Origin: Spirochaetia bacterium
GTDB taxonomy: Bacteria; Spirochaetota; Spirochaetia; Treponematales; Treponemataceae
DNA length: 38,059 nucleotides
Assembly (NCBI GenBank): GCA_022768685.1
Contig: JALEPQ010000134.1
Coordinates: 1-38,059 of the forward strand
Direction: 5' to 3'
Below, piece by piece: positions 17,323-35,103 of this stretch. Position 1 is the stretch's first letter, and each line of letters opens with the position of its first letter. The position numbers were made by a program, and so were the translations under genes. The notes below the pieces were generated by a model. It saw nothing but the letters and a program-made list of their open reading frames with translations, did no database searches and had not been told where the DNA came from.

Positions 17323-17482
17323 ACAGTGCTTACTGTCCCCCTCTTTTTAGTAAAGTCTTCTCATTTAAATAGTATTTCCGTAACATTGTTAGTTAATTTG
17401 CAAAAAAAAAATTATATAAAATCAATAAATCCCGATATAATAAAGGTAAGAGTTTATATTTCATAATATATTGGGGTATTTT

Positions 17483-20400
17483 ATGAATAACTATTTTAAA
17501 AAGTTTAACTTAATTTTATGTTTAAGTTTAACAGGATTATTTACATTTTCCTGTAGAATTGGTCTTGGAGCATCAGTAGATACAGAACCTCCAAAGATTT
17601 CAATTGAATCACCTGCTGCCAGTGCAGTTATTAGGGACTCCTTTGCTTTAAAGGGTAATGTTTCTGATGATAAGGGGATTAAATCTATTGAAGCTGTTTT
17701 TACTTCTACAGATTCAAAAGGCTATTCAAGAACTTTTACTGGCGACGTAACTGATGAATCTTGGAAGTGTATTATTTCTGATATGCCAGATGGTAGTTTT
17801 GAAGTAACTGTTACTGCCACTGACCATAGTAATCACACTACAACTGCATCCCGCCAGTTTACAATTGATAATACTCCACCTTTAGTAGTTTTACAGCGTC
17901 CTTCTTCTAAGGCAACTGCTGATAATTCCTCTACAGATTCTTACGGCCAGCTTTTAACTCTTGAAGGTCAGGCTGCTGATGATAATGATGTAGATCATAT
18001 TGATGTTTCTATTTTCAAGGATGCTGCACAGACTCAGCTTTTAAAAACTGTAACTCTAAAGAATGTTCCTCCAACTATTTCTTTGGATGTTGCACAGTTT
18101 GTTGATGGAGTGGAAAATGACTATTCAACTATTTACGGAACAACTTCAAAAATTGATGATACACGTTATTTTTATCTTTCGTTAAAAGTTTATGATGGTG
18201 CAAAACGCTATCCGGTTGATGGAGAGCGTTCTGCTGATGATGATAATGGAAATGCAACAACTTCTTATTATCTTTACAGTGATCTTTCTGGTTCTGTTTT
18301 AAGTAATTATAAGGTTACAGATGTTTACCACATGCTAAGTGGGTTTTATTCCGATTCTAATGTTAGTAATTCTGTAAAACAGCAGCTTGAATCAGTTTCA
18401 ATTAAGGAATCAAGATTTTCATTAAATCCAGAAAACAGTCCTACTTATACTGTTACAGGAAGAAGCTGGCTAACAGTTGAAAAAGATTCTGAAGGCAACA
18501 TTAGTCCAACAGAAGGTCTTGATAAAATAACAAAAGATTACTATTTAACAAATGACACAGCTCAGCTTGTAGTAGAAGTATCACCAGGTCTTGATGGTTC
18601 ATCTATTCTCCCAGAGACAATTGGTGTTTATTTATTAAAAACTAATAATGTTGGTGAACCTGAAAATAACGCAGAAAAAATCTGGATTGTAAAACCAGAA
18701 ACTGCTTGGGGTGATTATCCTGCAGAAACTGCTCCTTTGTGGTCAGATAGAAAATCTATGAGTGGTTCATCTTACAAGTTCTCAAGCGAAAAAAATATTT
18801 CTGCTTCTGAATACGGATTAAAAATTAATGCTTGCTACAGAATTTATGTCGTAGGTAAGGATAATGCAGGAAATCAGTTAAATAATACTGATACAAAATT
18901 CTGTGGTTTCTATCTTGCTTCAAGTGGTGCAACTATGAGTTATAAGCTCATGGAGCAGGAAGATTATGTTACAACACAGGGAACTAAAAATAAGGTAAAT
19001 ACAATCTTAAAAATCCGTCCAACAGATAAAAATAAATTCTATGCTTACAGAATGTTTTCATCTTCAATTCCTAGAACCATTAGTAAGGATATGTTCTATG
19101 ACAATGGAAAATTAATAACAGGTGTAACAGAACTTGAGATTGAAGGAATTCCTGACTCTTACGAAGGAGCAGATTCATCTTCTTATAGTGCTATTTATTA
19201 TGACAACGATATTCCTCTTGAATATGTAGATGATAATGATAAATCTACTGTAAAAAAATATTTAATGTATCTTATTTTGGATTATAAACTTGGTGGAAGT
19301 GAAGAAACTGATGTTAACTTACAAAATACGTACGATTCATATTTAGCTGTAAAAATTGATGACATTAAGCCTACAACAACAATCAAGCAGCCAGTTGCTT
19401 CTTACAAGGATGATACAAAATATATAGATGATACTTCTTTTGATTTCCGTCTTGAATCAAAGGATAGTGATTCTGGAATTGAAAAACTTGAATATGTAAT
19501 CACAAAATCCTCTACAGCACCTGCTGATGGTGATGCTGCTTGGATAAGTACAGATGATTACACTGGTGGAGTTTATGATTTTTCAAGAAATCTTATTGAG
19601 GGTGAAAATTCTCTTGCAGAAGGTAAATGGTATTTATATGCAAAATCAACTGATGCTGTTGGTTTAGTTTCTGATACAGTCAGCACATGGTTCAATGTTG
19701 ATAAAGCTGCGCCTGCTTTGACAGTTTCTGATCTTACTGAAGATTCTAAAAATCTTTTAAATCAGACTATTACAATAGATGGGAATAATAAATATCTTAC
19801 AATTACAGGAACTATAGATGATTCAAATGCTCTTCACGGAACTGAATCTCTTGTAATTAAAGTTGATGATGTAAATAAGGTAAGTACAAAAATTGATGTA
19901 GCAAATGATCATACTGCAACTGCACAAGAACCTTGGACATATACAAAATCAACAAAAACCTGGACTTACAAGCTTCCTGTAGGAGATGTTCCCGGAACTC
20001 TTAAAGAAAATTCAGATGTAAAACTTGAAGTAATTGCAAAGGATATTGTAAACAGAAAGGTTTCTAGAGAATTTACACTCTATTATGATACTCATAAACC
20101 TATTGCCAGCATTTCTTCTCCAGATACAGATTATTCTGAGACACAATTTATTAGTGCAGATAAATTTGATTTTAAGATTGATGCTTCAGATTCAACAGGT
20201 TCTGGAATAAAAACTATAAGTTATGTCTTCAGCAGATCTTCTACAAAAGAAGGAATTTCAGAAACTTGGGTAGATGATAATTCTTACATAAGTGGCGATA
20301 AGTACATTACAAAAGAACTTGTTTCAGGAAATGGAACTCCAGAAAATGCAGCACAACTTACAGAAGGTAAGTGGTACTTATACGTAAAAGCAACTGATAA

Positions 20401-23400
20401 AGTAGGATTAACATCTGATACAATATGCAGGGCCTTCAATGTAGATAAATCAACTCCAGACTTAAGGGTAAAAGTTGGTGATAAACAACTTTCCGAAGAT
20501 TCTACTAACGCATTCTATGAAGAAATCTCTAATAAGGGAACTGAAAATGAAGCCTTAGTTCTTACTGGAACGGTTTCAGATACAAATGCCCTTTCAAAAC
20601 TTGAAATTTCAGTAGATGGACAGAATCCAGTTTCAATTACACCAAATAAAGGAACTTGGGAATATAATCTTCGTGTAGGACCAGAAGATGGTACCTTACA
20701 AAAGGATGCTTCTATTTCCGTAAATTTAACTGCAACAGATGCAGTTAGTCGCAAAACATCAAAGGATTACATTGTTTATTATGATACAAAAGCTCCAACT
20801 CTTGATGTTTCAAGTCCTGCAGAAAATATTTCTGTAGATGCAGGAGCTTATAAAATTAAGGGTAATGTAGTTGATGATGGATTTGGACTTACAACTCTTG
20901 TTTTTGAATTAAGAGAACGTGGAAAAACTACAGTCCTAAAAGACGAAAATAATAAGGCCATATCAGGAACTTCAACTTATGATGCGACAACAAAGAAGTG
21001 GAGTGGTTCAGGTAATTATCCTCTTACAGTTCGTGGTGGACAGTGGTATTTCTCAGAAACATTCGGAAGCACAACAGAATCTGCAATTCCTTTAGGAACA
21101 AAAGAAGGTTCAATTGATTTATATGTAAAGGCAACAGAAAACAGTGCTGTAACTTCACGTGCAAAAATCACAGAAAAAACAGTACCATTCTATTTTGACA
21201 GTGCACTTCCTGGTGTAAATGAAGATGGAATTCAGGCAAAAGGTAGAACTACAAATACAAACTTTACATTAAAAGGAAAAGTTTGGGATTCAAATGAAGT
21301 CGCAAGCGTAAGCGTAAGCTACGATGAAAATGGCATTACAAAAACTTTAACATCTACAGGTGACTCTCCAAAGGTTACACTAGGTTCTGTTGTAACAGCA
21401 AAAACTGAAGCTACAGGAGCAGCTTGGTCATGTCCATTTGAAATTACTTCTTCACGTATTAACGGAACAAAAGACGGTGAACTTTCTGATGGTACATACA
21501 CCTTTACAATTACAGCAACAGATGCAGCCGGAAAAACAGCAACTGTTCAGCGTACTGTAACTGTAGATACAATAAAACCTGAAATGGGAACTAATGTTGT
21601 AGATGGTTCTCAGGGTACAAAAATAGGTGATAATTACTGGTTTAGTACAAATCAGGTTCCAATTTTAATCAGAGCAGAAGATGATACAAATGGAACTGGA
21701 ATTTCTAAAGTAGAATATTCATTAAGTTCAGACTTTGCTTCATCTGCAGCTTTAGCTACAAGTAGTTTTAAATTATCTGGTGAATCATCTAAAAAAGAAG
21801 GATGGGCAGGAACTGTAACTTGTTCAAGGGAGGGTGCAAATACAATTTATGTTAGAGCTACAGATACAGCAGGAAACAAGATTGAAAAATCTATTACTGC
21901 TTATGTAGATACAAAATCACCTGCATTCACTTGTACAAATTTAAATACCACAATTACAGGGACTCAGGTTTCTACAGAAAGTGAACTGATTGTTAATGGA
22001 ACGACAGATATTACAATTATCCTTTCAGATGTTGCAGATGATGAAACTAGTGGGGAAGGTACTTTTGCTGGTTTATACACGTCTGCTACAGAAAATGCTG
22101 CTGTCCAGATTGTGGAATTAGGTTCTACAAAAGTAGACATTAAGTCAACTTATGATTCAGATAGTGAAAAATATATTCTTACAATTCCAAAAGAACAGCA
22201 GACAAAAGCAAATTCGGGAAGTGTAAAAGTTCAAATAACAGATAGGGTTGGTCATTCTACAACTACAGAAGCATTTAAAATGTCAGTAGATACAAGTGCA
22301 CCAACAATAAAAATTACTTCCCCAACAGCAGGTAAGGAAGTAAATAAAGTAATAACAGTTTCTGGTGAAGCTAGTGATACAAATAAGGTTAGCCTTGTAA
22401 CTGTAACTGCTAAGGGAAATTCAAAGACAAAATCTTATACATTTACCCCTAAAACAGCTGCAGAAGATGTTGAATGGTCAGTTAATATTGATACAACATA
22501 TTTTTATAATGATAAAGAAACAGAAAATTTGGTTCTGTCTGTAACAGCAAAAGATTCTTTGGGCAATGAAACTATAGCAGCAAATGAAGTAACAAGAACA
22601 ATTAAAATCAATCAGAATCTAGATCGCCCTAAAGTTGTAATTTCAAATCTTGATGGTTCTGGAACAACTTTAATGTACGGAAACAGAGCTTCTATTTCTG
22701 GTACTGTTGAAGATGATGATGGAATTGAAAATTTTGCTGTAGTATCGTCTGCAATTACAGATTTTGCTACTGGAACTAAATCAAAATTCCTTGCTGAAAA
22801 TTCAAAACCATATTCGGTGAGTGATGGTTCACAAATTACATTAAATATCCTCAATTCAAAGACAACAGACAGTCAGGATGATATTGATAATTTGTACAAA
22901 ATAACTCCTGCAAGAGATTCTCGTATTTACAAATATTATGTAAAAACTGAGGCTGAAATAGATTATTACGATGTTACAATTTATGAACCTGAAACAGGAA
23001 TCTGGACATTCTATCCGCATGATGCATCTGATGCTAATAAGTCTATCTATTTTGTAATTCAGGATACAGATTCTACTAATGTAACCACTTCAGAAGGCTC
23101 AACAACATATAATTATTTCTATACAACTTCAACTAATCAGCTTTACAATCCTAAAGTGCAGTTTAAATCTGGAACAGTTGGTGATAATAAAACAGTAATT
23201 ACATATCTTTCTGACAGTAAATCTCCAGAATTTGTTTCTGCAAGTATGAACTATAAGGCCACTTCTAGTGCAAAAACAGAAGATGGAACAGAAAGCAATG
23301 TAAATCAATCAACAATTGTTGGTGGAAACAGAAAATTTGTTCAGTTTGTTATTACATGTTCAGATGCTGCTGGAATTTCTAGAATGCAGCTAAAAGTTGT

Positions 23401-26400
23401 AGATTCTACTAATGCAGAAAAACAAAACTTAAAAATTAATACAGACGCTGAAAGAGCTGTTAATGATGGAACACTAATAAATGGAATTTGGACAACTCCA
23501 TACATTGATGTTTCAGATTTTGCAAAAGGTGGTGCCCGTGGAGTTCTGACTTTCTATGATGGAAGTGGGCTTTATAATAATACAACAATTAACTTTACAA
23601 TTGATAATGACGCTCCTTCGTATTCAGGAATTTCTCCGTTGTCAAATGATGAAGTTACAGGTCAGATTACAATAACTGGTAATACAACAGATATTGGTGA
23701 TGCAGGTGTAGTTTCTACAAGATGGATTATTCCAACTTATAAAACATGGACATATACAAAGGATGCAACTGCAACTTACGAAGAAGGTCACTTTGTAAAA
23801 GATGGTGAAAATTATAAGGCTTATACAAACGAAACTACAGGTGATACATATTCAAGAACAGGCGCTACACAGTATACAGATGCAGAGATTAAGGCAATGA
23901 ATGCTTTAGTAAAAGATTCTAGTCCTGTTTATGCTTATGGTCACTATTCGTTAAATTCTTCTGGAAAATATGAGACTGCTATTGGTAAAACAAGCGGAGA
24001 TACATATTCAAGCCAATTAAATGAAATGGATCAGGGCTCAACAGCTACAAGCTGGACAAAAATCTTCACAGAAACAGAAATTAAGTCTTATGATAAAGAT
24101 GATTTATCAAATACTTATGTAGTTTCAAAAGATGAAGCCGCTGGTGATATTTATCTTGTTCCTTTCTACATTGTTTCAGAAGATGCAGTAGGAAATATTT
24201 CGATTAAGAAGCATGTAATCAGACATAATCCTGATGCAAATATTCCTCGTGTAACTTCAATTTCTCCAAATGAAGATGATTATGATGAAATTAAGGATTC
24301 AAATGGAGTTGTAACTGGAAGACAGAATTATGTAACAATGGGTGGTACAATCAAAATAAATGGTACTGCTCAAGATAATGTAAGCATAAGTAAAGTATTC
24401 TTACAGATTGATCCAAATCCAACTTTGACTTCTGGAAAATATGTTCCAAATTTTGACTCTACAGATAAATCAACAGTTGCAGGATACACAAGTACTGGTA
24501 CTTCAAAGGTTTATACAATCACAGATAAATCAAACATTACAGGATTATCTGATGATAAAAAAGATAAGATTGCAGCTGCATGGTGGGGTATTGAAGTAGA
24601 AAAAACAACTTCTTGGAATAAAGAAATTAACAAATATGGTGAACTTAATCCTTCTGAAAATGGTTTAAAATATGTTTGTATTCGTGCATGTGCATTAGAC
24701 AATGAAGGAAATATTGGTGCTTGGTGTTCTCCAATTACAATTGCAATTGATATGGGAACTCCAAAAATTGGTGAACATGGGCAGAGATTGTATAAGTACA
24801 ATTCAACAGGCTTTAATAGTAATAGCCCAGAATTAAATATTGAGGCTCGTATCGAAACTTACTCTGCTGATAAATATTTAAGAGGAAATTGGTACTTTGT
24901 AGTTTCAGTAGAAGATGAAAGTGGAATTAGCGAATGTGAAGTTTACAAAGATGGTGGACTTATAAATACATCAGACTATACTGCAAAATCTGTTGGAACT
25001 GGTGATTCTGGATGGGGTACAAGAAGTGGAAAGTTACTCTATATTCCAGTTGATAATTCTTCAACAACAGTAACTTATACAGTTTATGCAAAAGATGCTG
25101 ATGGAAAAACATCTGAAAAGGATTTTACATTCAATATTGATAATGATGCACCAATTATTTCTTCTGTAAAGGGTAATTCAAAATCATTATTAAGTTCACC
25201 AGACGCAATTTCTAACTCAAATTATAGGTACCAGTTGGAAAGTGCAATTGCAGATAATAATTCTGGATTGGATATGGTTGCTTTCTATTTTGAAAGAGCA
25301 ACAGGAACTACAGATATTGACGGTGTTTATGATGTAATGCTGCCACACAATAATACTCGTGCAAACAGAATTACTGGAGCAGCTTCAAAAACAGTTGTTT
25401 CTGGTGCAACACCAATTACATTCAAGGGATTAGAATTAACTGGGACAACACGTTCTACAGATAAAACTGTAGTTCATGCATCTTTGGTGAATAATGCAAA
25501 TATCAGAACCGGTGGTTTAATTTTCATTGGTGGTATGTATCACCGAATTGATGGTTTTGCAAAGGCTACTGGTACAATTACCTTAGATGAAGCTGTGGCA
25601 GTTTCAGAAACAAATGTATTCTTACCATATGCTCAGGTAATTGATAATGCAGATAAGTGGAACTGGAATGAAACTACTCATGTTTATGATAAAGTAACAG
25701 ATGATGATGATAACATGGTTGAATCTCTTACAGGTACAAAATCTGGAGGATATTCTGCAGAAGCTTCATTTGATTCGTCAAATATTTACGATGGTCCAAT
25801 AAATCTTGTTATTGTAGCATTTGATAAAGCTGGAAATACAAGTGGAAGAATTATAGAAACATCAGTTCAGAATAATAGACCACAAGTTTCGAAAATTTGG
25901 TTAGGTACAGATTTAACCGGTGATGGAAAATATGCAGATTCAGAATTTGAAGAATATGATGTAGGTCATGTAAGCGGAACAACTTCATCAGCTGTAATTA
26001 CAACAGCAGGCTATAAAGAAGTTCGCTATAACGAAGATACACATGCATATTACACAGTAAATTCTTCTCGTGGTGCTTTTACTGTAAAAGATAAACTCGT
26101 AGTAGTACCAGAATTTGTTGGTGGAAACGGAGATATTCAGATGGTATTTAATCCATCTGCAAGTGACACAGAAATAAATAAAACTGAAGAAACTGCTGCA
26201 AACAGAATAAAAACAACAATATTCACTTCTTCTCATGTACCAACAACTACAAGTGGCGTAGATGTAAATGAAACAATTAGAATAGGAACAAAAGCTTATA
26301 TACTTCAGAATAATTCAGAAACTGCAACAACTAAACTTCCTGCTGATTCAGCATCTGCAAAAGTTTCATTTACATTCTGGGATTCAACAGATGGTCTTGA

Positions 26401-29400
26401 ATGTGGTTCAACTTCACAGTGGGCTTATGTAAGAATTACAGACTTAGCTGTAGATTGTGTTGATGACGTAGCTCCAAAAGTAATTATTGACCCATTTAAG
26501 TGGACTGGAAGAGGATTTGATGTGGTAAAGAATAGTGATGGTACTGTAAAAGGCTATAGTCCACTAAATAATCTTTATTATTCGGTAAATAACGCTAACT
26601 GGAAAACAGCTGGTACTGGAGGAACAGAAGCCTCTCCAACAAATTCAGAAGTAAACGGACATATTGAACTTGTAAATGATATTGATACGACTAAAGTTAC
26701 TGCTGATAACTTTGGAACAAACGATCCTAAAGTTTCTGGAAAAATTGTAGTTCGAGGTACAGCTTACGATGATGTACGTCTTGATACACTTTGGGTTTCT
26801 TTTGCAGGAATGACACTGGCAAATAAACTTACAAATACAGTAAGTATTAAAACAGCTGCAAATGCTATGCCGACACTTTCAACAAATGGTGAATATACTG
26901 TTGGAGCAGTTACTTATTACCAGGCTGCAAAATATACAACAGCTTCTTCAACTTGGAGTACAGCAACTGCAACAATTGGAACTGAGGGATGGGAATTTAA
27001 GATTGTAGAAGATGGAGTAAATGATAGTAACAGTTTCTTTAATCAAAAGGGACATCGCGTAACGTGGGAACTTTATCTTGATACTGCAAAAATACCTAAT
27101 GTTGCTCAAAAAGATGTAAAAGTAGCAGTATTAGCAGTAGATGGAAGAGGACAATTACAGTCTAGTACAAGTGTAGAAGGAACAGCTTCCGCTTCAAATG
27201 CAACTAATTACAATGCAGTTTGTGTTCCTTCATATCAGATGGATGTTGTACCTTATATTACAAGTGTGGATACATACATATATGGAAAATTAAAGAGTAG
27301 TATTAGAAGTGCTTACTCAAGAACATCATTAGGAAATTATATAGTTCGTAATAATGAAGAAATTACAATACATGGTTTCAACTTAGGAAGTTCTACAGTT
27401 GATCCTGTAATTACTAATGGTACAAAAGGCTCTGGAAAGAGTACGTATTATGTAAATGGAAATCTAGTTGTTTCAACTGCAAATATGACTTCTGGTAATT
27501 TTGCACTTAAAGTTGGAGTTTCTGGAAGTGAAGTGGATTTATTCAATAATTACAGTAATAACAACGCAAAAGGATCTTTCACAGGAACAATGAATGATTC
27601 TACTAGTTATGACAATAAAAATACTTATGGTTATAACAGAATGCCAAATAATTCAAGTAACAATCTTCTTACAGATGATATTATATTTGACGTATGGCAG
27701 TTCAATAGTGCTGCAGCAAAACCTGTAAGTGGAAAACTTTCAGAACCAGTAATGAGAATTAATCCAAAAGATGGCAGAATTGGTTTTGCATTTGTAAGTG
27801 GTCCGGCAGATTTTTCAATGTCTCAAATGTTTCAGGGACAATCAAATTCATACACAAGATTCCAGCATAACTATGCTACATTCAATAATGTAAGTTTTGT
27901 TTATGATTCAAATGGTATTGCTCATGGTACAACAACTGGTTTGGATACCTATCCAGAAGATACTAATTATAATTACACTTTAGCAGGTAGATTTACTTAC
28001 CAAAACAGCAAATGGGGAACAGGTACTGTTAATAGTATGAATGATAATTATGATGGTACCAATAAAGTCCGTCTTGAAGCTATAGGAATTCCGGGAAATA
28101 ACAACACTGATAATAAAGGTAATATCAGTATTATTGTAAACGGAACTAAACCAATTAGTTATACTATGACAGAAACAAGATTTGCATCTCCAACAATAGC
28201 TACTACTACTCATGGAACAGCAATGAATCAAACATCTGTTTATCTTGCATATTATGATGATATTCAAAAACAGATAAGATTTAGATATGCAACTTTAGGT
28301 GATAGTAAAGGCAATTACAATAATTTTAATGATAATGGTAAAGATAATAAACGCATTGCAATTAGTAATTATAACCCCGACGGAGCTGGAGATAATAATA
28401 ATGCAAAACGTGTATTTGAATCTACTACAAATGTATTTAGTTTAATTGCAGGAAAAGACTGGCAGCAAACTAGAAATTCTGCACAAGATGGCTCAGATAC
28501 AAATTATAAATATACAAGAGTTACTTCTGCTGCTGAAAATAATATATCGCTTGCTGCCGATGGTTATTATCTTGATACTGGTTCTGTTGCTGGTAAATAT
28601 GTTGCAATTGATGCATTAGCTGGTACTGCAAGTAATGGAACTGTTACTTCCTCAAATGCAGCTTCCGGTGATACTGTAGTTGCAGTCTGGTTTGATGGAA
28701 CAAACTGTAATTACTCATATATTGTAAATCCAACTTCAGGAAATGATTTAAATGCTTACAGAACAACAATAGCAGATGGTTATTGGTCAAAACCTAAAGT
28801 GATTTTTAGTGAAGGTGGAGAATACTGTAATGTTAAGTTTGGTCCAGATGGATCAGTTCATATTGCAGCTAATGTTGATGGTGTACTTAAATACGCTTAT
28901 TTAAAAGATCCTGCAGCAATCTCAAGCTATGTTGAATCAACAGATTCTGTTGTTATAGATTCATATTCAAATACAGGTACACAGATTACAATTGATGTTG
29001 GTTATGATAAAACAAGAACAAGTGTAGTTGTCCCATATATTGGATACTATAATGAATCTGCAAAACGAGCTGCCGTAGCTCATCCTGTAATAAAGAGCAC
29101 AACAACAAGTGGAACAACAACTTATTCTGTAAATTATAAAGCTCAGGGTACAAGCGATTCTGTTTATACAGGAAACTGGGAAATTTCTATTGTTCCAACT
29201 GCAAGTGATCTTTCTGATGCATTAAATACAACAGATAAGGTAAGTATTGGATTATGGAAAACAACAACTGGCGTAATAAAGAATTCTACGACAGGGTCAT
29301 CATCAGCTTCTAATACAAGTGGAAACTGTTGGGGTAATGGAACCGCTTATCCTGTATTAGGATATTCAGTTGTTACAACTTCTGGTACCGCAATAGAAAC

Positions 29401-29416
29401 TGCACAGATGAAATAA
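17483..29416 (+). CDS. giant multi-domain Ig-like lipoprotein 3 (~3977 aa)
   Basis: MNNYFKKFNLILCLSLTGLFTFSC lipobox then RIGLG; many FTIDNTPP/NVDKxxP/DTKAPT Ig-like junctions; IPT/TIG-like and propeller-like C-terminal part; start moved from TTG 17471 to ATG 17483. Confidence 0.85.
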   Translation: MNNYFKKFNLILCLSLTGLFTFSCRIGLGASVDTEPPKISIESPAASAVIRDSFALKGNVSDDKGIKSIEAVFTSTDSKGYSRTFTGDVTDESWKCIISDMPDGSFEVTVTATDHSNHTTTASRQFTIDNTPPLVVLQRPSSKATADNSSTDSYGQLLTLEGQAADDNDVDHIDVSIFKDAAQTQLLKTVTLKNVPPTISLDVAQFVDGVENDYSTIYGTTSKIDDTRYFYLSLKVYDGAKRYPVDGERSADDDNGNATTSYYLYSDLSGSVLSNYKVTDVYHMLSGFYSDSNVSNSVKQQLESVSIKESRFSLNPENSPTYTVTGRSWLTVEKDSEGNISPTEGLDKITKDYYLTNDTAQLVVEVSPGLDGSSILPETIGVYLLKTNNVGEPENNAEKIWIVKPETAWGDYPAETAPLWSDRKSMSGSSYKFSSEKNISASEYGLKINACYRIYVVGKDNAGNQLNNTDTKFCGFYLASSGATMSYKLMEQEDYVTTQGTKNKVNTILKIRPTDKNKFYAYRMFSSSIPRTISKDMFYDNGKLITGVTELEIEGIPDSYEGADSSSYSAIYYDNDIPLEYVDDNDKSTVKKYLMYLILDYKLGGSEETDVNLQNTYDSYLAVKIDDIKPTTTIKQPVASYKDDTKYIDDTSFDFRLESKDSDSGIEKLEYVITKSSTAPADGDAAWISTDDYTGGVYDFSRNLIEGENSLAEGKWYLYAKSTDAVGLVSDTVSTWFNVDKAAPALTVSDLTEDSKNLLNQTITIDGNNKYLTITGTIDDSNALHGTESLVIKVDDVNKVSTKIDVANDHTATAQEPWTYTKSTKTWTYKLPVGDVPGTLKENSDVKLEVIAKDIVNRKVSREFTLYYDTHKPIASISSPDTDYSETQFISADKFDFKIDASDSTGSGIKTISYVFSRSSTKEGISETWVDDNSYISGDKYITKELVSGNGTPENAAQLTEGKWYLYVKATDKVGLTSDTICRAFNVDKSTPDLRVKVGDKQLSEDSTNAFYEEISNKGTENEALVLTGTVSDTNALSKLEISVDGQNPVSITPNKGTWEYNLRVGPEDGTLQKDASISVNLTATDAVSRKTSKDYIVYYDTKAPTLDVSSPAENISVDAGAYKIKGNVVDDGFGLTTLVFELRERGKTTVLKDENNKAISGTSTYDATTKKWSGSGNYPLTVRGGQWYFSETFGSTTESAIPLGTKEGSIDLYVKATENSAVTSRAKITEKTVPFYFDSALPGVNEDGIQAKGRTTNTNFTLKGKVWDSNEVASVSVSYDENGITKTLTSTGDSPKVTLGSVVTAKTEATGAAWSCPFEITSSRINGTKDGELSDGTYTFTITATDAAGKTATVQRTVTVDTIKPEMGTNVVDGSQGTKIGDNYWFSTNQVPILIRAEDDTNGTGISKVEYSLSSDFASSAALATSSFKLSGESSKKEGWAGTVTCSREGANTIYVRATDTAGNKIEKSITAYVDTKSPAFTCTNLNTTITGTQVSTESELIVNGTTDITIILSDVADDETSGEGTFAGLYTSATENAAVQIVELGSTKVDIKSTYDSDSEKYILTIPKEQQTKANSGSVKVQITDRVGHSTTTEAFKMSVDTSAPTIKITSPTAGKEVNKVITVSGEASDTNKVSLVTVTAKGNSKTKSYTFTPKTAAEDVEWSVNIDTTYFYNDKETENLVLSVTAKDSLGNETIAANEVTRTIKINQNLDRPKVVISNLDGSGTTLMYGNRASISGTVEDDDGIENFAVVSSAITDFATGTKSKFLAENSKPYSVSDGSQITLNILNSKTTDSQDDIDNLYKITPARDSRIYKYYVKTEAEIDYYDVTIYEPETGIWTFYPHDASDANKSIYFVIQDTDSTNVTTSEGSTTYNYFYTTSTNQLYNPKVQFKSGTVGDNKTVITYLSDSKSPEFVSASMNYKATSSAKTEDGTESNVNQSTIVGGNRKFVQFVITCSDAAGISRMQLKVVDSTNAEKQNLKINTDAERAVNDGTLINGIWTTPYIDVSDFAKGGARGVLTFYDGSGLYNNTTINFTIDNDAPSYSGISPLSNDEVTGQITITGNTTDIGDAGVVSTRWIIPTYKTWTYTKDATATYEEGHFVKDGENYKAYTNETTGDTYSRTGATQYTDAEIKAMNALVKDSSPVYAYGHYSLNSSGKYETAIGKTSGDTYSSQLNEMDQGSTATSWTKIFTETEIKSYDKDDLSNTYVVSKDEAAGDIYLVPFYIVSEDAVGNISIKKHVIRHNPDANIPRVTSISPNEDDYDEIKDSNGVVTGRQNYVTMGGTIKINGTAQDNVSISKVFLQIDPNPTLTSGKYVPNFDSTDKSTVAGYTSTGTSKVYTITDKSNITGLSDDKKDKIAAAWWGIEVEKTTSWNKEINKYGELNPSENGLKYVCIRACALDNEGNIGAWCSPITIAIDMGTPKIGEHGQRLYKYNSTGFNSNSPELNIEARIETYSADKYLRGNWYFVVSVEDESGISECEVYKDGGLINTSDYTAKSVGTGDSGWGTRSGKLLYIPVDNSSTTVTYTVYAKDADGKTSEKDFTFNIDNDAPIISSVKGNSKSLLSSPDAISNSNYRYQLESAIADNNSGLDMVAFYFERATGTTDIDGVYDVMLPHNNTRANRITGAASKTVVSGATPITFKGLELTGTTRSTDKTVVHASLVNNANIRTGGLIFIGGMYHRIDGFAKATGTITLDEAVAVSETNVFLPYAQVIDNADKWNWNETTHVYDKVTDDDDNMVESLTGTKSGGYSAEASFDSSNIYDGPINLVIVAFDKAGNTSGRIIETSVQNNRPQVSKIWLGTDLTGDGKYADSEFEEYDVGHVSGTTSSAVITTAGYKEVRYNEDTHAYYTVNSSRGAFTVKDKLVVVPEFVGGNGDIQMVFNPSASDTEINKTEETAANRIKTTIFTSSHVPTTTSGVDVNETIRIGTKAYILQNNSETATTKLPADSASAKVSFTFWDSTDGLECGSTSQWAYVRITDLAVDCVDDVAPKVIIDPFKWTGRGFDVVKNSDGTVKGYSPLNNLYYSVNNANWKTAGTGGTEASPTNSEVNGHIELVNDIDTTKVTADNFGTNDPKVSGKIVVRGTAYDDVRLDTLWVSFAGMTLANKLTNTVSIKTAANAMPTLSTNGEYTVGAVTYYQAAKYTTASSTWSTATATIGTEGWEFKIVEDGVNDSNSFFNQKGHRVTWELYLDTAKIPNVAQKDVKVAVLAVDGRGQLQSSTSVEGTASASNATNYNAVCVPSYQMDVVPYITSVDTYIYGKLKSSIRSAYSRTSLGNYIVRNNEEITIHGFNLGSSTVDPVITNGTKGSGKSTYYVNGNLVVSTANMTSGNFALKVGVSGSEVDLFNNYSNNNAKGSFTGTMNDSTSYDNKNTYGYNRMPNNSSNNLLTDDIIFDVWQFNSAAAKPVSGKLSEPVMRINPKDGRIGFAFVSGPADFSMSQMFQGQSNSYTRFQHNYATFNNVSFVYDSNGIAHGTTTGLDTYPEDTNYNYTLAGRFTYQNSKWGTGTVNSMNDNYDGTNKVRLEAIGIPGNNNTDNKGNISIIVNGTKPISYTMTETRFASPTIATTTHGTAMNQTSVYLAYYDDIQKQIRFRYATLGDSKGNYNNFNDNGKDNKRIAISNYNPDGAGDNNNAKRVFESTTNVFSLIAGKDWQQTRNSAQDGSDTNYKYTRVTSAAENNISLAADGYYLDTGSVAGKYVAIDALAGTASNGTVTSSNAASGDTVVAVWFDGTNCNYSYIVNPTSGNDLNAYRTTIADGYWSKPKVIFSEGGEYCNVKFGPDGSVHIAANVDGVLKYAYLKDPAAISSYVESTDSVVIDSYSNTGTQITIDVGYDKTRTSVVVPYIGYYNESAKRAAVAHPVIKSTTTSGTTTYSVNYKAQGTSDSVYTGNWEISIVPTASDLSDALNTTDKVSIGLWKTTTGVIKNSTTGSSSASNTSGNCWGNGTAYPVLGYSVVTTSGTAIETAQMK

Positions 29417-30775: not shown

Positions 30776-31408
30776 TCATGAATTATAAACTGGTTGTAAA
30801 CCAATAAATGCTGTTACAGATTTTTCCGGAGCCATTACCAGTGTATCCATCAACGTAAGTCCTATTTTTGTACATGGTAACAGGCGGAAAAAGTCTTTTT
30901 GGACATCAAGACTGACATCTCCATATCCAGGGCTGTATCTGGGTTTTGCAGTAAATCCTTGGGCTTCCGCATCCTTTTTTATTTTATCATTTAATAAATT
31001 AACAACTTCTTCTATGAACATTGCTCCTGTAGCCTGAAATATAGCAGCCTTTACCGAATCAAAATGTTCTGTACGCTTTATGAGCATATCAACCTGACTG
31101 CCAATAGTAGCCGCCAGCAAAATTACTTCAGTACATCCTGAAAGATTTTTACTCAAATCTTGTGAAGAAAAAGAAACATCCGCAAACTCAATCTTTCCAC
31201 CAATTCCTAATTCCAAATTCCTCATTCCGAATTGACTGTAAACCGCCTTTGGTACAATCACTTTTTTCATTTCTTCTATGCATTGGTGAATTAAAAGTTC
31301 AACTTCATTTTCAGGCGGATTTAATTTACTGTAGCCTAAATATCTTGCAGCTTCGTTAAAGTCAGGCTTGATTTCTGATTTGTCTGGATAAAAAAACTGA
31401 ATGTTCAT
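30776..31408 (-). CDS. stand-alone vitamin B12-dependent methionine synthase activation-domain protein
   Basis: KPRYSPGYGDVSLDVQKDFFRLLPCTKIGLTLMDTLVMAPEKSVTAFIGL matches the MetH activation-domain signature. Confidence 0.85.
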   Translation of the reverse strand: MNIQFFYPDKSEIKPDFNEAARYLGYSKLNPPENEVELLIHQCIEEMKKVIVPKAVYSQFGMRNLELGIGGKIEFADVSFSSQDLSKNLSGCTEVILLAATIGSQVDMLIKRTEHFDSVKAAIFQATGAMFIEEVVNLLNDKIKKDAEAQGFTAKPRYSPGYGDVSLDVQKDFFRLLPCTKIGLTLMDTLVMAPEKSVTAFIGLQPVYNS

Positions 31409-32088
31409 TATTTTTTACTGACTTTACAGTTTTTAATTTTTGGAATTCCAGAAAAATCTTTTGCCAAAGTAAGAGGATCCAGTTTACTTGGAACTTTTAC
31501 TATGTATGAAACTACAATTTTTTCGTCTGGAGAATATTCTAAATCTGTATCAAAAATAATGATGTCATTTTTTTTAAAAACCTGTTCAATCTGTTTTTCA
31601 TCAATATCTTCATCGGTAAATTCAAGGCTTACAACTTTTGTACTGCCTTGTGGAATCAGTTTGTGTTCAATTTTTTCAGATACAAACAATGTTATAAGAA
31701 TTAATGCCATTGTTAAAAATGCAGGATAGTAGAGAGCTGCTCCGCATGTAAGGCCAATTCCAGAATCAGCAAAAATTACAGCTGCAGTTGTAATCCCACG
31801 GATATTAAATCCTTCTTTTATGATTGTTCCACCACCAACAAAACCAATGCCCGTAATTACACCGGCTGCAATTCTGGTAGGATCTCCACGTATATTACCA
31901 AATTTAGAAAGTTCTACGGAAATAATGCTTAGTAAAGCAGAGGAAATACAGATTAAAACTAAAGTTCTTATTCCAACGGCATGCATTCTGATTTTTCGTT
32001 CAAGACCAAGAATTGAACCGCACAATAAAGCCGCAAAAATTCTGATTGAATAGTCTAAAAATGGATGTGAAACAATAAAATCTACCAT
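31408..32088 (-). CDS. MgtC/SapB-family membrane protein
   Basis: RIFAALLCGSILGLERKIRMHAVGIRTLVLICISSAL...GDPTRIAAGVITGIGFVGGGTIIKEGFNIRGITTAAVI. Confidence 0.9.
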   Translation of the reverse strand: MVDFIVSHPFLDYSIRIFAALLCGSILGLERKIRMHAVGIRTLVLICISSALLSIISVELSKFGNIRGDPTRIAAGVITGIGFVGGGTIIKEGFNIRGITTAAVIFADSGIGLTCGAALYYPAFLTMALILITLFVSEKIEHKLIPQGSTKVVSLEFTDEDIDEKQIEQVFKKNDIIIFDTDLEYSPDEKIVVSYIVKVPSKLDPLTLAKDFSGIPKIKNCKVSKK

Positions 32089-32096
32089 AAAAATCC

Positions 32097-32822
32097 CTAT
32101 CTGAATAATTTAAATCCTGAAGAAATTCTGTCTCCAACTTTAACCCAGTTTAAAGCCTGTTTTACCGTCTGTTTGTTTTTTTGTGTGCTTATAGTTTTAT
32201 AACTTTCATTAACCCAGTTTGCAATTGCATTTTCATCATTATAAAATTCATTTGAAAAAGGACATTTTGCCAGAATTACAGAAAGATAATCTCTGTCATT
32301 TACATAAATTGCAAAATTTTCTGCAAATTTTTCAAAAGCAGCTTCTGCAGAACTTACCAGGTTTGTTGCAGGAACAATACTTATATTTTTTGCGGATGAT
32401 AAAACTTCAGCTTTTGAAGGATAGCTTTTTAATAAAAATGTAACTGTAATTTTTTCTTTCTGCTGGTCTATTCTTTTTATCAGTTCATTTGCTGTAAACA
32501 TAAAAGAATTAATCATACAATCATTTGCAGCAGCAACTTCTTCGGTTTTATCTTCTGAAAATTTTGATGTAAAATTCTGTGAATCAAAATAAAAAATTAC
32601 ATGATTAATGTTCTGTAATTCAGTTTCAGCTTTAATAATAAAAGAATGAGCAGAAATTGCAGAAGCTTTATTCCAGTTTGTTGTAAAAACATTTTGTGGT
32701 GGATTTATATTTTTTTCTTCAAGATTTTGATTTGTAAAAATTTTATTTTCCTGAAGACAAAGAGAAGAGCAGAAATCCAGACTGTCTGGAAAATCTTTTC
32801 CTATTAAAAGCACATTAGACAT
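32097..32822 (-). CDS. hypothetical protein, possible Rossmann-like fold
   Basis: MSNVLLIGKDFPDSLDFCSSL N-terminus; complete ORF in a leftward operon; family not recognised. Confidence 0.65.
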   Translation of the reverse strand: MSNVLLIGKDFPDSLDFCSSLCLQENKIFTNQNLEEKNINPPQNVFTTNWNKASAISAHSFIIKAETELQNINHVIFYFDSQNFTSKFSEDKTEEVAAANDCMINSFMFTANELIKRIDQQKEKITVTFLLKSYPSKAEVLSSAKNISIVPATNLVSSAEAAFEKFAENFAIYVNDRDYLSVILAKCPFSNEFYNDENAIANWVNESYKTISTQKNKQTVKQALNWVKVGDRISSGFKLFR

Positions 32823-32828
32823 ATTCAA

Positions 32829-32871
32829 ATTATACCACAGTGTAGAATGACATTCTACACTGTGGTATAAT
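32829..32871. promoter_or_regulatory. perfect palindrome carrying two mirrored extended -10 boxes (bidirectional promoter)
   Basis: attataccacagtgtagaatg-a-cattctacactgtggtataat; TGGTATAAT occurs on both strands, 6 nt and 8 nt from the two start codons. Confidence 0.75.
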
Positions 32872-32879
32872 CAACTTAT

Positions 32880-34109
32880 ATGAAAGTTTGGATTAAATAT
32901 TTACTTGGAATTGCTCTTGGAATTATCACTGCATTTATTCTTCCTGTGGAGAATATTCAGTTTAATAACTTTATTTCTTTTCTTACAGAATTTTTTATCA
33001 GATTCGGAAGATATCTTGTTGTACCATTAATTTTTTCAACAGGGATTATTTCAATAAATAAACTGCGTTCATCAAAGCTCCTCTTCAAAACTTTTGGATG
33101 GACTTTAATAATTATTGTATTTTCAACTTTTATTCTTACTTTAGCTGGGCTTCTTTCAATTGTTATAGTTCGTATTCCTCGTATTCCAATTACAGTTGAT
33201 AACGCCGTAAATGCAGTTCGTTTTGATATTAAGGGATTAATTCTTTCTCTTTTTCCATATTCAGGTTTTGAAGCACTTAAAGAAGGTTCATTCCTCTTAG
33301 TATCCTTAATTTTTTCATTCCTTATTGGATGGGAATCAGCTTCAGAAGAGACTACTTTTAAGCCGGTATTTTCTCTGGCAGATTCACTTTCAAAACTTTT
33401 TTACAATATTTCCGTTTTCTTTACAGAAGTTCTTTCTGTTCTTTCAATTGCAATTGCATGTAATTGGGCATACACTTTCCGTGACATAATTACTTCTGGA
33501 ATCTACACTTCAATGATTATTATGTTCCTTGTAGATTTAGTTCTTGTAGTTGCAGTTATTTATCCTCTTATTCTAAGATATGTCTGTCATGATCCTCATC
33601 CTTATAAAGTTTTATATGCCAGTCTGGCACCAATGTTCCTTTCATTTATAAGTGGTGATTCTAACTTGATTTTGCCTTTATCTATCAGACATGCAAAGGA
33701 ATCTTTAGGAATAAGAAGACGTTGTTCTGGATTTACTTTCCCAATTTTTTCTATTTTTGCCCGTGGGGGGTCTGCTTTAGTTTCTGTAATTTCATTTATT
33801 GTAATCTGGCGTTCTTATTCATCTTTAAGTATTCCTTTTACAGATATTTTATGGATTTTTGGAATTGCGTTTGGAATGTCTTTCCTTTTAGGAGGGCTTC
33901 CATCTGGTGGAGCTTTTGTTCTGCTTACAATTATGTGTTCACAGTATGGAAAAGGATTTGAAACAAGTTTCCTTCTTTTAAAACCAGCTGCATTGATAAT
34001 CTGTTCATTTGCTACATTGTTTGATTGTGTAACTGCAATGTTTGGTAGTTATATAGTAGCTGTTAAAACAAAAATGATTGAACATCATACATTGCAACAT
34101 TTCATTTAA
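32880..34109 (+). CDS. DAACS-family dicarboxylate/amino acid:cation symporter
   Basis: About 8 TM helices; FIRFGRYLVVPLIFSTGI, SFISGDSNLILPLSI, ARGGSALVSVISF, GLPSGGAFVLLTIMCSQYG motifs. Confidence 0.85.
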   Translation: MKVWIKYLLGIALGIITAFILPVENIQFNNFISFLTEFFIRFGRYLVVPLIFSTGIISINKLRSSKLLFKTFGWTLIIIVFSTFILTLAGLLSIVIVRIPRIPITVDNAVNAVRFDIKGLILSLFPYSGFEALKEGSFLLVSLIFSFLIGWESASEETTFKPVFSLADSLSKLFYNISVFFTEVLSVLSIAIACNWAYTFRDIITSGIYTSMIIMFLVDLVLVVAVIYPLILRYVCHDPHPYKVLYASLAPMFLSFISGDSNLILPLSIRHAKESLGIRRRCSGFTFPIFSIFARGGSALVSVISFIVIWRSYSSLSIPFTDILWIFGIAFGMSFLLGGLPSGGAFVLLTIMCSQYGKGFETSFLLLKPAALIICSFATLFDCVTAMFGSYIVAVKTKMIEHHTLQHFI

Positions 34110-34218: not shown

Positions 34219-35103
34219 TTGGCTATTTCAATTGAAGAAATAGTGACTGGACGAAAAACTTTTTTTATAACTCCGGACACGTCACTATTACCAGAAAGTT
34301 TTTTAGAAGATTATTTCTCATTAGGCTATGAATGCTATTTTGTTGAAAATGACAAGCGTGTAGATATTCGACGAAAAATAGATATTATCATAAATACTTT
34401 TAGAGATGTAATCCTGTTTTTTAATATTGATTATCCAATTTCAGATGTAAACTGGGATGAAATAATAGACAACACCCTCAGAAAATACAACAATGGAACT
34501 TCAATAGGTGTTTTCTATATAAAACGTCAGTCAAGAGAAGAAAAATTACGGTTAGAAAAAAAATATCTTTTTGAAAAAGGATTAAATTGCGGTTGTATTC
34601 AGCTTGAATATCAGAAAAAGCAGAATTTTGAAATTATTGAAAAAATTTTGCGTGCAAATCAGGCTCAGGGACGCAGAAAAAACATCCGGGCCCTCTGTTC
34701 AAACACATGTACTTTCCAGATTAGGTTTAATGGTGGATGTTATAATGGAATTTTACAGGACGTAAGTCTATCTCACTTTTCATTTTTGTTTTCAGAAAAT
34801 ACAATTCCTGTAAAGCTTTATGAAAAAATCTCAGACATTCACTTTAATATTAGAGGTTTTCTATTTAAATCTGATGCAGTTTTAATTATGGAACGTAAAG
34901 TTGGTGGTAAAAGTCTTTATGTATTTGCATTTACTTCTTCAAATGGAGCTGCCGGCTTGGATCAGCGAATTCATCAACTTTTGGTTCCTGTAATTTATCA
35001 GCTTATGTCTGCAAATTGTAAAACTTTGTTAGATCAACTTTATATGAGTGGAATTGAAGATAAATCTGAAAAAGATATCTTTAAAACTCCTGATTTTTTA
35101 TGA
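34219..35103 (+). CDS. PilZ-like domain protein
   Basis: C-terminal GRRKNIRALCSNTCTFQIRFNGGCYNGILQDVSLSHFSFLF resembles PilZ; TTG start with agaggg SD. Confidence 0.6.
   Translation: MAISIEEIVTGRKTFFITPDTSLLPESFLEDYFSLGYECYFVENDKRVDIRRKIDIIINTFRDVILFFNIDYPISDVNWDEIIDNTLRKYNNGTSIGVFYIKRQSREEKLRLEKKYLFEKGLNCGCIQLEYQKKQNFEIIEKILRANQAQGRRKNIRALCSNTCTFQIRFNGGCYNGILQDVSLSHFSFLFSENTIPVKLYEKISDIHFNIRGFLFKSDAVLIMERKVGGKSLYVFAFTSSNGAAGLDQRIHQLLVPVIYQLMSANCKTLLDQLYMSGIEDKSEKDIFKTPDFL

Follow-up and report, generated by a model that had tools for sequence, protein, structure and literature searches.

Introduction

Divergent overlapping promoters are arrangements in which two promoters overlap and the polymerases exclude each other. 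A long palindrome within a promoter, on the other hand, is normally read as the operator of a protein. Leaderless genes with a -10 element adjoining the open reading frame have been surveyed in bacteria (PMC3160421) and in Deinococcus-Thermus (PMC12340547), and the 2011 survey reported such genes in 6 of 18 Spirochaetes genomes (PMC3160421). Bidirectional bacterial promoters can also arise from symmetry of the -10 element itself, in which case the starts usually lie 18 bp apart off one shared -10 and one product is often an antisense non-coding RNA (PMC10268837). Finally, template switching between inverted repeats leads to homogenisation of the arms and to inversion of the spacer (PMC8604942), and homogenisation of quasi-palindromes by this route is known from yeast genes, from mutation sites in E. 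coli and from RNA hairpins (PMC8604942, PMC7202029, PMC8794818).

The locus described here lies in a window of 38,059 nucleotides (the whole stretch of DNA that was analysed) from a Spirochaetia bacterium, a Treponema of gut type. It resembles the surveyed leaderless genes in having a -10 a few nucleotides before the ATG and no Shine-Dalgarno (SD) sequence, whereas here 43 bp hold two such arrangements in mirror image, and the divergent pair is conserved. As in the promoters based on -10 symmetry, one stretch of DNA serves RNA polymerase in both directions through its sequence symmetry, but two separate -10 elements are present and both products are conserved protein-coding genes. Overlap with polymerase exclusion is predicted, as for divergent overlapping promoters in general; what sets this locus apart from them is a perfect dyad, no known local regulator and, as predicted, no 5′ UTR on either side. 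The arms becoming identical and the spacer inverting are features shared with template-switch quasi-palindromes, here proposed for a conserved bidirectional promoter across many species. The locus is conserved and mostly explicable, and what is new is the combination of divergent overlapping promoters with predicted leaderless genes on both sides, together with a plausible mutational cause of the perfection of the palindrome.

A perfect palindrome between two divergent genes

The palindrome consists of two arms (32829-32849 and 32851-32871) that are complementary at 21/21 positions around a single central base, A32850, so that only 1 nt lies between them (Table 1), exactly as the preliminary description had claimed. 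It is far beyond chance, the longest perfect arm (loop of 0-3) reaching 8-11 bp in 20 first-order randomisations of the window. Genome baselines were drawn from 275 kb of the window's genome and 400 kb of one relative; elsewhere in the former, a single further palindrome had perfect arms of at least 20 bp. This one (L183:226-270, on contig C16) has 22-bp arms and a 1-bp centre and is located just upstream of an ArsR-family-like regulator gene, a position that looks like the one expected for an autoregulatory operator of such a gene. A tRNA search found none.

Table 1. Coordinates of the mirrored promoter, its elements and the genes on both sides
Feature	Position	Strand	Remarks
Whole mirrored promoter	32829..32871	.	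43-bp dyad kept in 34 upstream regions, window included
Extended -10 TGGTATAAT of symporter gene	32863..32871	+	Followed by 8 nt, then ATG 32880
Mirrored extended -10 TGGTATAAT of orphan/MgtC/MetH-like operon	32829..32837	-	Followed by 6 nt, then ATG
Candidate weak -35 TAGAAT of + promoter	32843..32848	+	17-bp spacer; sits inside the opposite arm
Candidate weak -35 TAGAAT of - promoter	32852..32857	-	Right arm; mirror of the + candidate; columns 27 and 29 invariant
SDF/DAACS-type sodium:dicarboxylate (or amino acid) symporter gene, predicted leaderless	32880..34109	+	Pfam PF00375, 6.5e-34
Orphan gene, predicted leaderless	32097..32822	-	SDR-like Rossmann fold in model
MgtC family gene, downstream in minus-strand operon	31408..32088	-	PF02308, 7.9e-32
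MetH-activation-domain-like gene, overlaps MgtC gene end	30776..31408	-	PF02965, 6.5e-05, just below curated cut-off

The identities previously proposed for the flanking genes (a symporter on one side and an orphan, an MgtC and a MetH-activation gene on the other) were confirmed by Pfam, with a sub-threshold match for the MetH domain. The orphan product gave no significant match in Pfam, NCBIfam or PDB sequences. Its AlphaFold model (37 sequences, pLDDT 91) matches FabI/FabG-type folds in the PDB (E about 1e-8, TM about 0.6), and the product is accordingly modelled with a Rossmann fold like that of short-chain dehydrogenases/reductases (SDRs), so that it is not an obvious DNA-binding protein. 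No regulator domain was found in the tested flanking genes, and no HTH regulator gene adjoins the palindrome. Of 146 genus genomes, 143 have the symporter and 144 the orphan, and in the upstream regions examined the two are usually divergent neighbours with a gap of 55-58 bp. Among the relatives that have names, Treponema of rumen and gut predominate; they include T. bryantii, in whose strains the locus is present (L254, L255, L263). Two other reading frames in the window were noted: a 3981-aa ORF (17471-29416, plus strand) that opens with a lipoprotein-like signal and contains numerous repeats of Ig-like or bacterial surface type, and a 294-aa ORF downstream of the symporter (34219-35103, plus strand) with no Pfam or NCBIfam match, whose C-terminal half appears PilZ-like by eye.

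Predicted leaderless starts on both sides

An extended -10 closes each arm, with its hexamer at 32866-32871 for the plus strand and at 32829-32834 (ATTATA as written on the plus strand) for the minus strand, where the A of the ATG is position 32822. No SD was seen in the window before ATG 32880 or ATG 32822, and the arrangement proposed in the preliminary description, an extended -10 at 6 or 8 nt from the ATG without an SD, was found at both starts. The identical promoter strength suggested for the two sides gained no support: the distances to the start codon (6 versus 8 nt) and the discriminators differ.

A spacer of 17 bp, the same spacing as that of the strong TTGAC -35 in other genera, puts each candidate -35 (a weak match) in the opposite arm. 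In the plus-strand candidate, T1 and G3 of TTG are invariant in relatives (columns 15 and 17), which probably makes T15 and G17 the first and third bases of the -35 that serves the opposite arm's -10. We treat this element as a candidate because the hexamer is otherwise poor, matching the consensus at 3/6 positions, and is not called by a promoter scan.

Comparison with relatives strongly predicts leaderless initiation on the symporter side and on its mirrored counterpart. When 3-12 nt before the symporter ATG were searched in 83 distinct upstream regions, a -10 matching in at least 5/6 positions ended 6-10 nt before the ATG in 81 of them, and none was nearer than 6 nt. With sigma-70 geometry, 6 nt is about the shortest distance that lets the A of the ATG be +1. 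Similarly, TATAAT-N(4-12)-ATG precedes the symporter in 71/200 genus genomes, with no case at N4 or N5, and the orphan-side distance is mostly 6-7 nt in relatives. An SD-like motif occurs in only 3/83 symporter upstream regions, two of which are the regions without an adjacent -10. These two belong to sister species (L019 and L021), and both carry AGAGGA before the ATG; in L019 a -10 was found 63 nt upstream. The exception appears to fit the rule, an SD being present where the -10 no longer adjoins the ATG. In other genera of the family, all 20 sampled genomes have the order -35, 17-18 bp, -10, 5-8 nt, ATG, with no SD. The proposal of a bidirectional promoter with leaderless starts is therefore strongly supported: the -10 elements adjoin the ATG and never come closer than 6 nt on the symporter side, SD motifs are nearly absent and reappear in the two exceptional species, and the other genera are alike. 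A literature search found no mapped transcription starts in Treponema. Across the genes of the window's genome, TATAAT peaks at 6-8 nt before the ATG (13 cases, compared with about 8 over the other 38 positions), which suggests that leaderless promoters are common there. At the symporter gene, the predicted leaderless start would be conserved across the whole spirochaete family.

Conservation and loss of the dyad

The regions that retain the 43-bp dyad all belong to one large clade. All 34 dyads have in both arms the same A11, T15 and G17, the same TG of the extended -10 and, bar one position, the same -10, which makes about half of each arm invariant, promoter-like sequence; the n of TGn is a matched base in both arms. 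In a further species (L111/L145), the arms are different and again nearly perfect (TTTTATCAGTTGT/ACAACTGATAAAA). In several lineages, however, the symmetry has been lost while the -10 elements were kept, and mismatches and insertions in the dyad are tolerated in relatives. One outcome that the preliminary description had named as refuting its reading, loss of the symmetry with retention of the genes, thus occurs in part of the genus, while the -10 elements persist almost everywhere; this indicates that symmetry is not essential to the promoter. The spacing of the -10 pair (22, 33/34, 43 and 52-54 bp) gave an impression of helical periodicity, which we do not propose since spacings of 38, 46, 47, 49, 59, 70, 88 and 97 bp also occur. 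The dyad centre is also a landing site for inserts: L015 carries a GTCATTGCGAGCACGAAGTGCGAAGCAATC repeat there and L020 part of one, and a separate hairpin, ATCAGGGCAAACG...CGTTTGCCCTGAT, is found in L149.

Co-variation of the arms and inversion of the centre

We next consider the arm positions that are free of promoter constraint (7, 10, 12, 14 and 16). Among 19 representatives, the arms match at these positions in 68% of comparisons within species as against 41% across species, and the arm co-variation score was 0.167 compared with 0.090 +/- 0.015 in shuffles, none of 500 shuffles scoring as high; control pairings with the arms slid against each other scored only 0.024-0.067. Close relatives inflate the simpler tests. 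Paired changes on the same branch numbered 18 versus 11 expected (permutation p about 0.02-0.03, a moderate signal). Positions 18-21, near the centre, showed no co-variation between the arms.

The centre itself changes orientation. Between L050 (AGTATCACAATCC) and L081 (GGATTGTGATACC), which lie within a fully supported clade, the core differs at 8 of 13 positions when compared directly and at 1 when one copy is inverted; the corresponding differences are 5 and 2 for L022/L016 and 4 and 1 for L136/L059. These contrasts were picked after inspection, and their simulated P values are thus optimistic. By parsimony, the central 3-5 bp have undergone at least 4 orientation switches on the tree. Two hallmarks of template switching, co-variation of the arms at unconstrained positions and inversion of the spacer between relatives, are thus present at the dyad, suggesting that slips in DNA copying keep re-matching the two arms.

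Taken together, these comparisons make it likely that the palindrome represents two interlocked outward promoters with leaderless mRNAs, whose symmetry has been polished by template switching. The two would be extended -10 promoters of the sigma-70 type, each arm holding the TGnTATAAT of one and probably a weak -35 (T-G) of the other. Interlocked in this way, they would admit one polymerase at a time, and the overlap therefore predicts competition between polymerases. The transcription start would coincide with the A of each ATG or lie no more than about 2 nt from it, so that the symporter gene and, opposite it, the SDR-like/MgtC/MetH-like operon would both have leaderless mRNAs. The common promoter motif would make the two arms a quasi-palindrome, and we infer that template switching during replication copies the free positions of one arm into its partner and occasionally flips the centre, with a perfect palindrome as the outcome in the window's species. 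The persistence of the dyad symmetry would then have a simpler, mutational explanation, which we regard as plausible.

Alternative explanations of the symmetry

A different possibility is an operator function: a transcription factor, dimeric or paired, would bind the dyad and control both genes, with selection for binding keeping the symmetry while the site drifts with its regulator. In its favour are the long perfect dyad, the co-variation of the arms, which could likewise result from selection on a site bound by a symmetric protein, and the matching n of TGn in the two arms; the second long perfect palindrome of the genome sample, moreover, adjoins the ArsR-like gene. Against this, a covariance model of the dyad, which finds the symporter locus at E about 1e-6 or better in 15/16 genomes (the sixteenth, G139, is the one with changed arms), gave no second confident site in any of the 16 (next best E 0.36), and a search of the window's own genome with the arm, allowing up to 3 mismatches, found no confident second copy. 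A single copy in 16 genomes and no adjoining regulator gene make a regulon operator less likely, the orphan with its SDR-like fold being no obvious DNA-binding protein, and the earlier suggestion of an operator is left with little support. Furthermore, the constraint on the arms mostly coincides with promoter elements, the symmetry has been lost in several lineages that keep the -10 elements, and repeated inversion of the centre is not predicted for an operator. We therefore consider this explanation unlikely, although a regulator with this one site keeps some probability.

Rather less probable still is that the symmetry reflects merely two inverted copies of one promoter motif, the remainder being chance and shared ancestry with no homogenising process. 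As some half of the positions in each arm are invariant and promoter-like, most of the symmetry would indeed need no further cause. However, agreement at the free positions is higher within a species than between species, these positions change together on the same branches, the window copy matches at 21/21 positions while other copies reach 20/21 with a different sequence, and the centre flips its orientation. It is very improbable that the palindrome acts as a structure, whether as a cruciform extruded under strong supercoiling or, in longer transcripts, as an RNA hairpin: its single-strand fold is very stable (-18.9 kcal/mol, z -9.2), but it lies between the predicted starts and hence outside the transcripts of these promoters, relatives tolerate mismatches and insertions, and no Rfam match was found. 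A terminator was rejected because the dyad is upstream of both starts, as was a bidirectional promoter with a single shared -10, whose geometry is wrong for two -10 elements and predicted starts about 57 bp apart.

If interlocked promoters polished by template switching are indeed the explanation, the comparative data offer an alternative route to a promoter palindrome, in which two outward promoters form an imperfect inverted repeat that is then perfected by copying errors. This would be a warning against inferring operators from symmetry alone, and the locus would be a naturally occurring case of RNA polymerase interference in which no regulator takes part.

Other mirrored promoter pairs in the genus

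Each of 10 genomes was found to have 1-3 outward TGnTATAAT pairs 26-53 bp long; among the mirrored pairs, perfect symmetry belongs to the window copy. In many species, a 33-bp mirrored pair, ATTATAGCAAA-N11-TTTGCTATAAT, is located between a gene that we take from its translation to be metA and a divergent unnamed gene (L316-L340, L212, L216). Its ATGs are often 6-8 nt from both -10 elements, and, in contrast to the symporter locus, both sides have C as the n of TGn. The occurrence of mirrored pairs at several loci indicates that the genus uses this mirrored leaderless design repeatedly. More tentatively, and with less than even confidence, we propose that Treponema has a class of regulator-free either-or switches, each made of two mirrored, interlocked extended -10 promoters flanked by leaderless genes (43 bp at the symporter/SDR-like locus, 33 bp at metA, and others), whose symmetry would be perfected by template switching and not by selection. 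Separately, one relative (G041; L202 and L203) carries the short perfect palindromes TTGAGTAGTGTACACTACTCAA and TTTGGGTAGTGTACACTACCCAAA with the common core GTAGTGTACACTAC, which look like the sites of one regulator.
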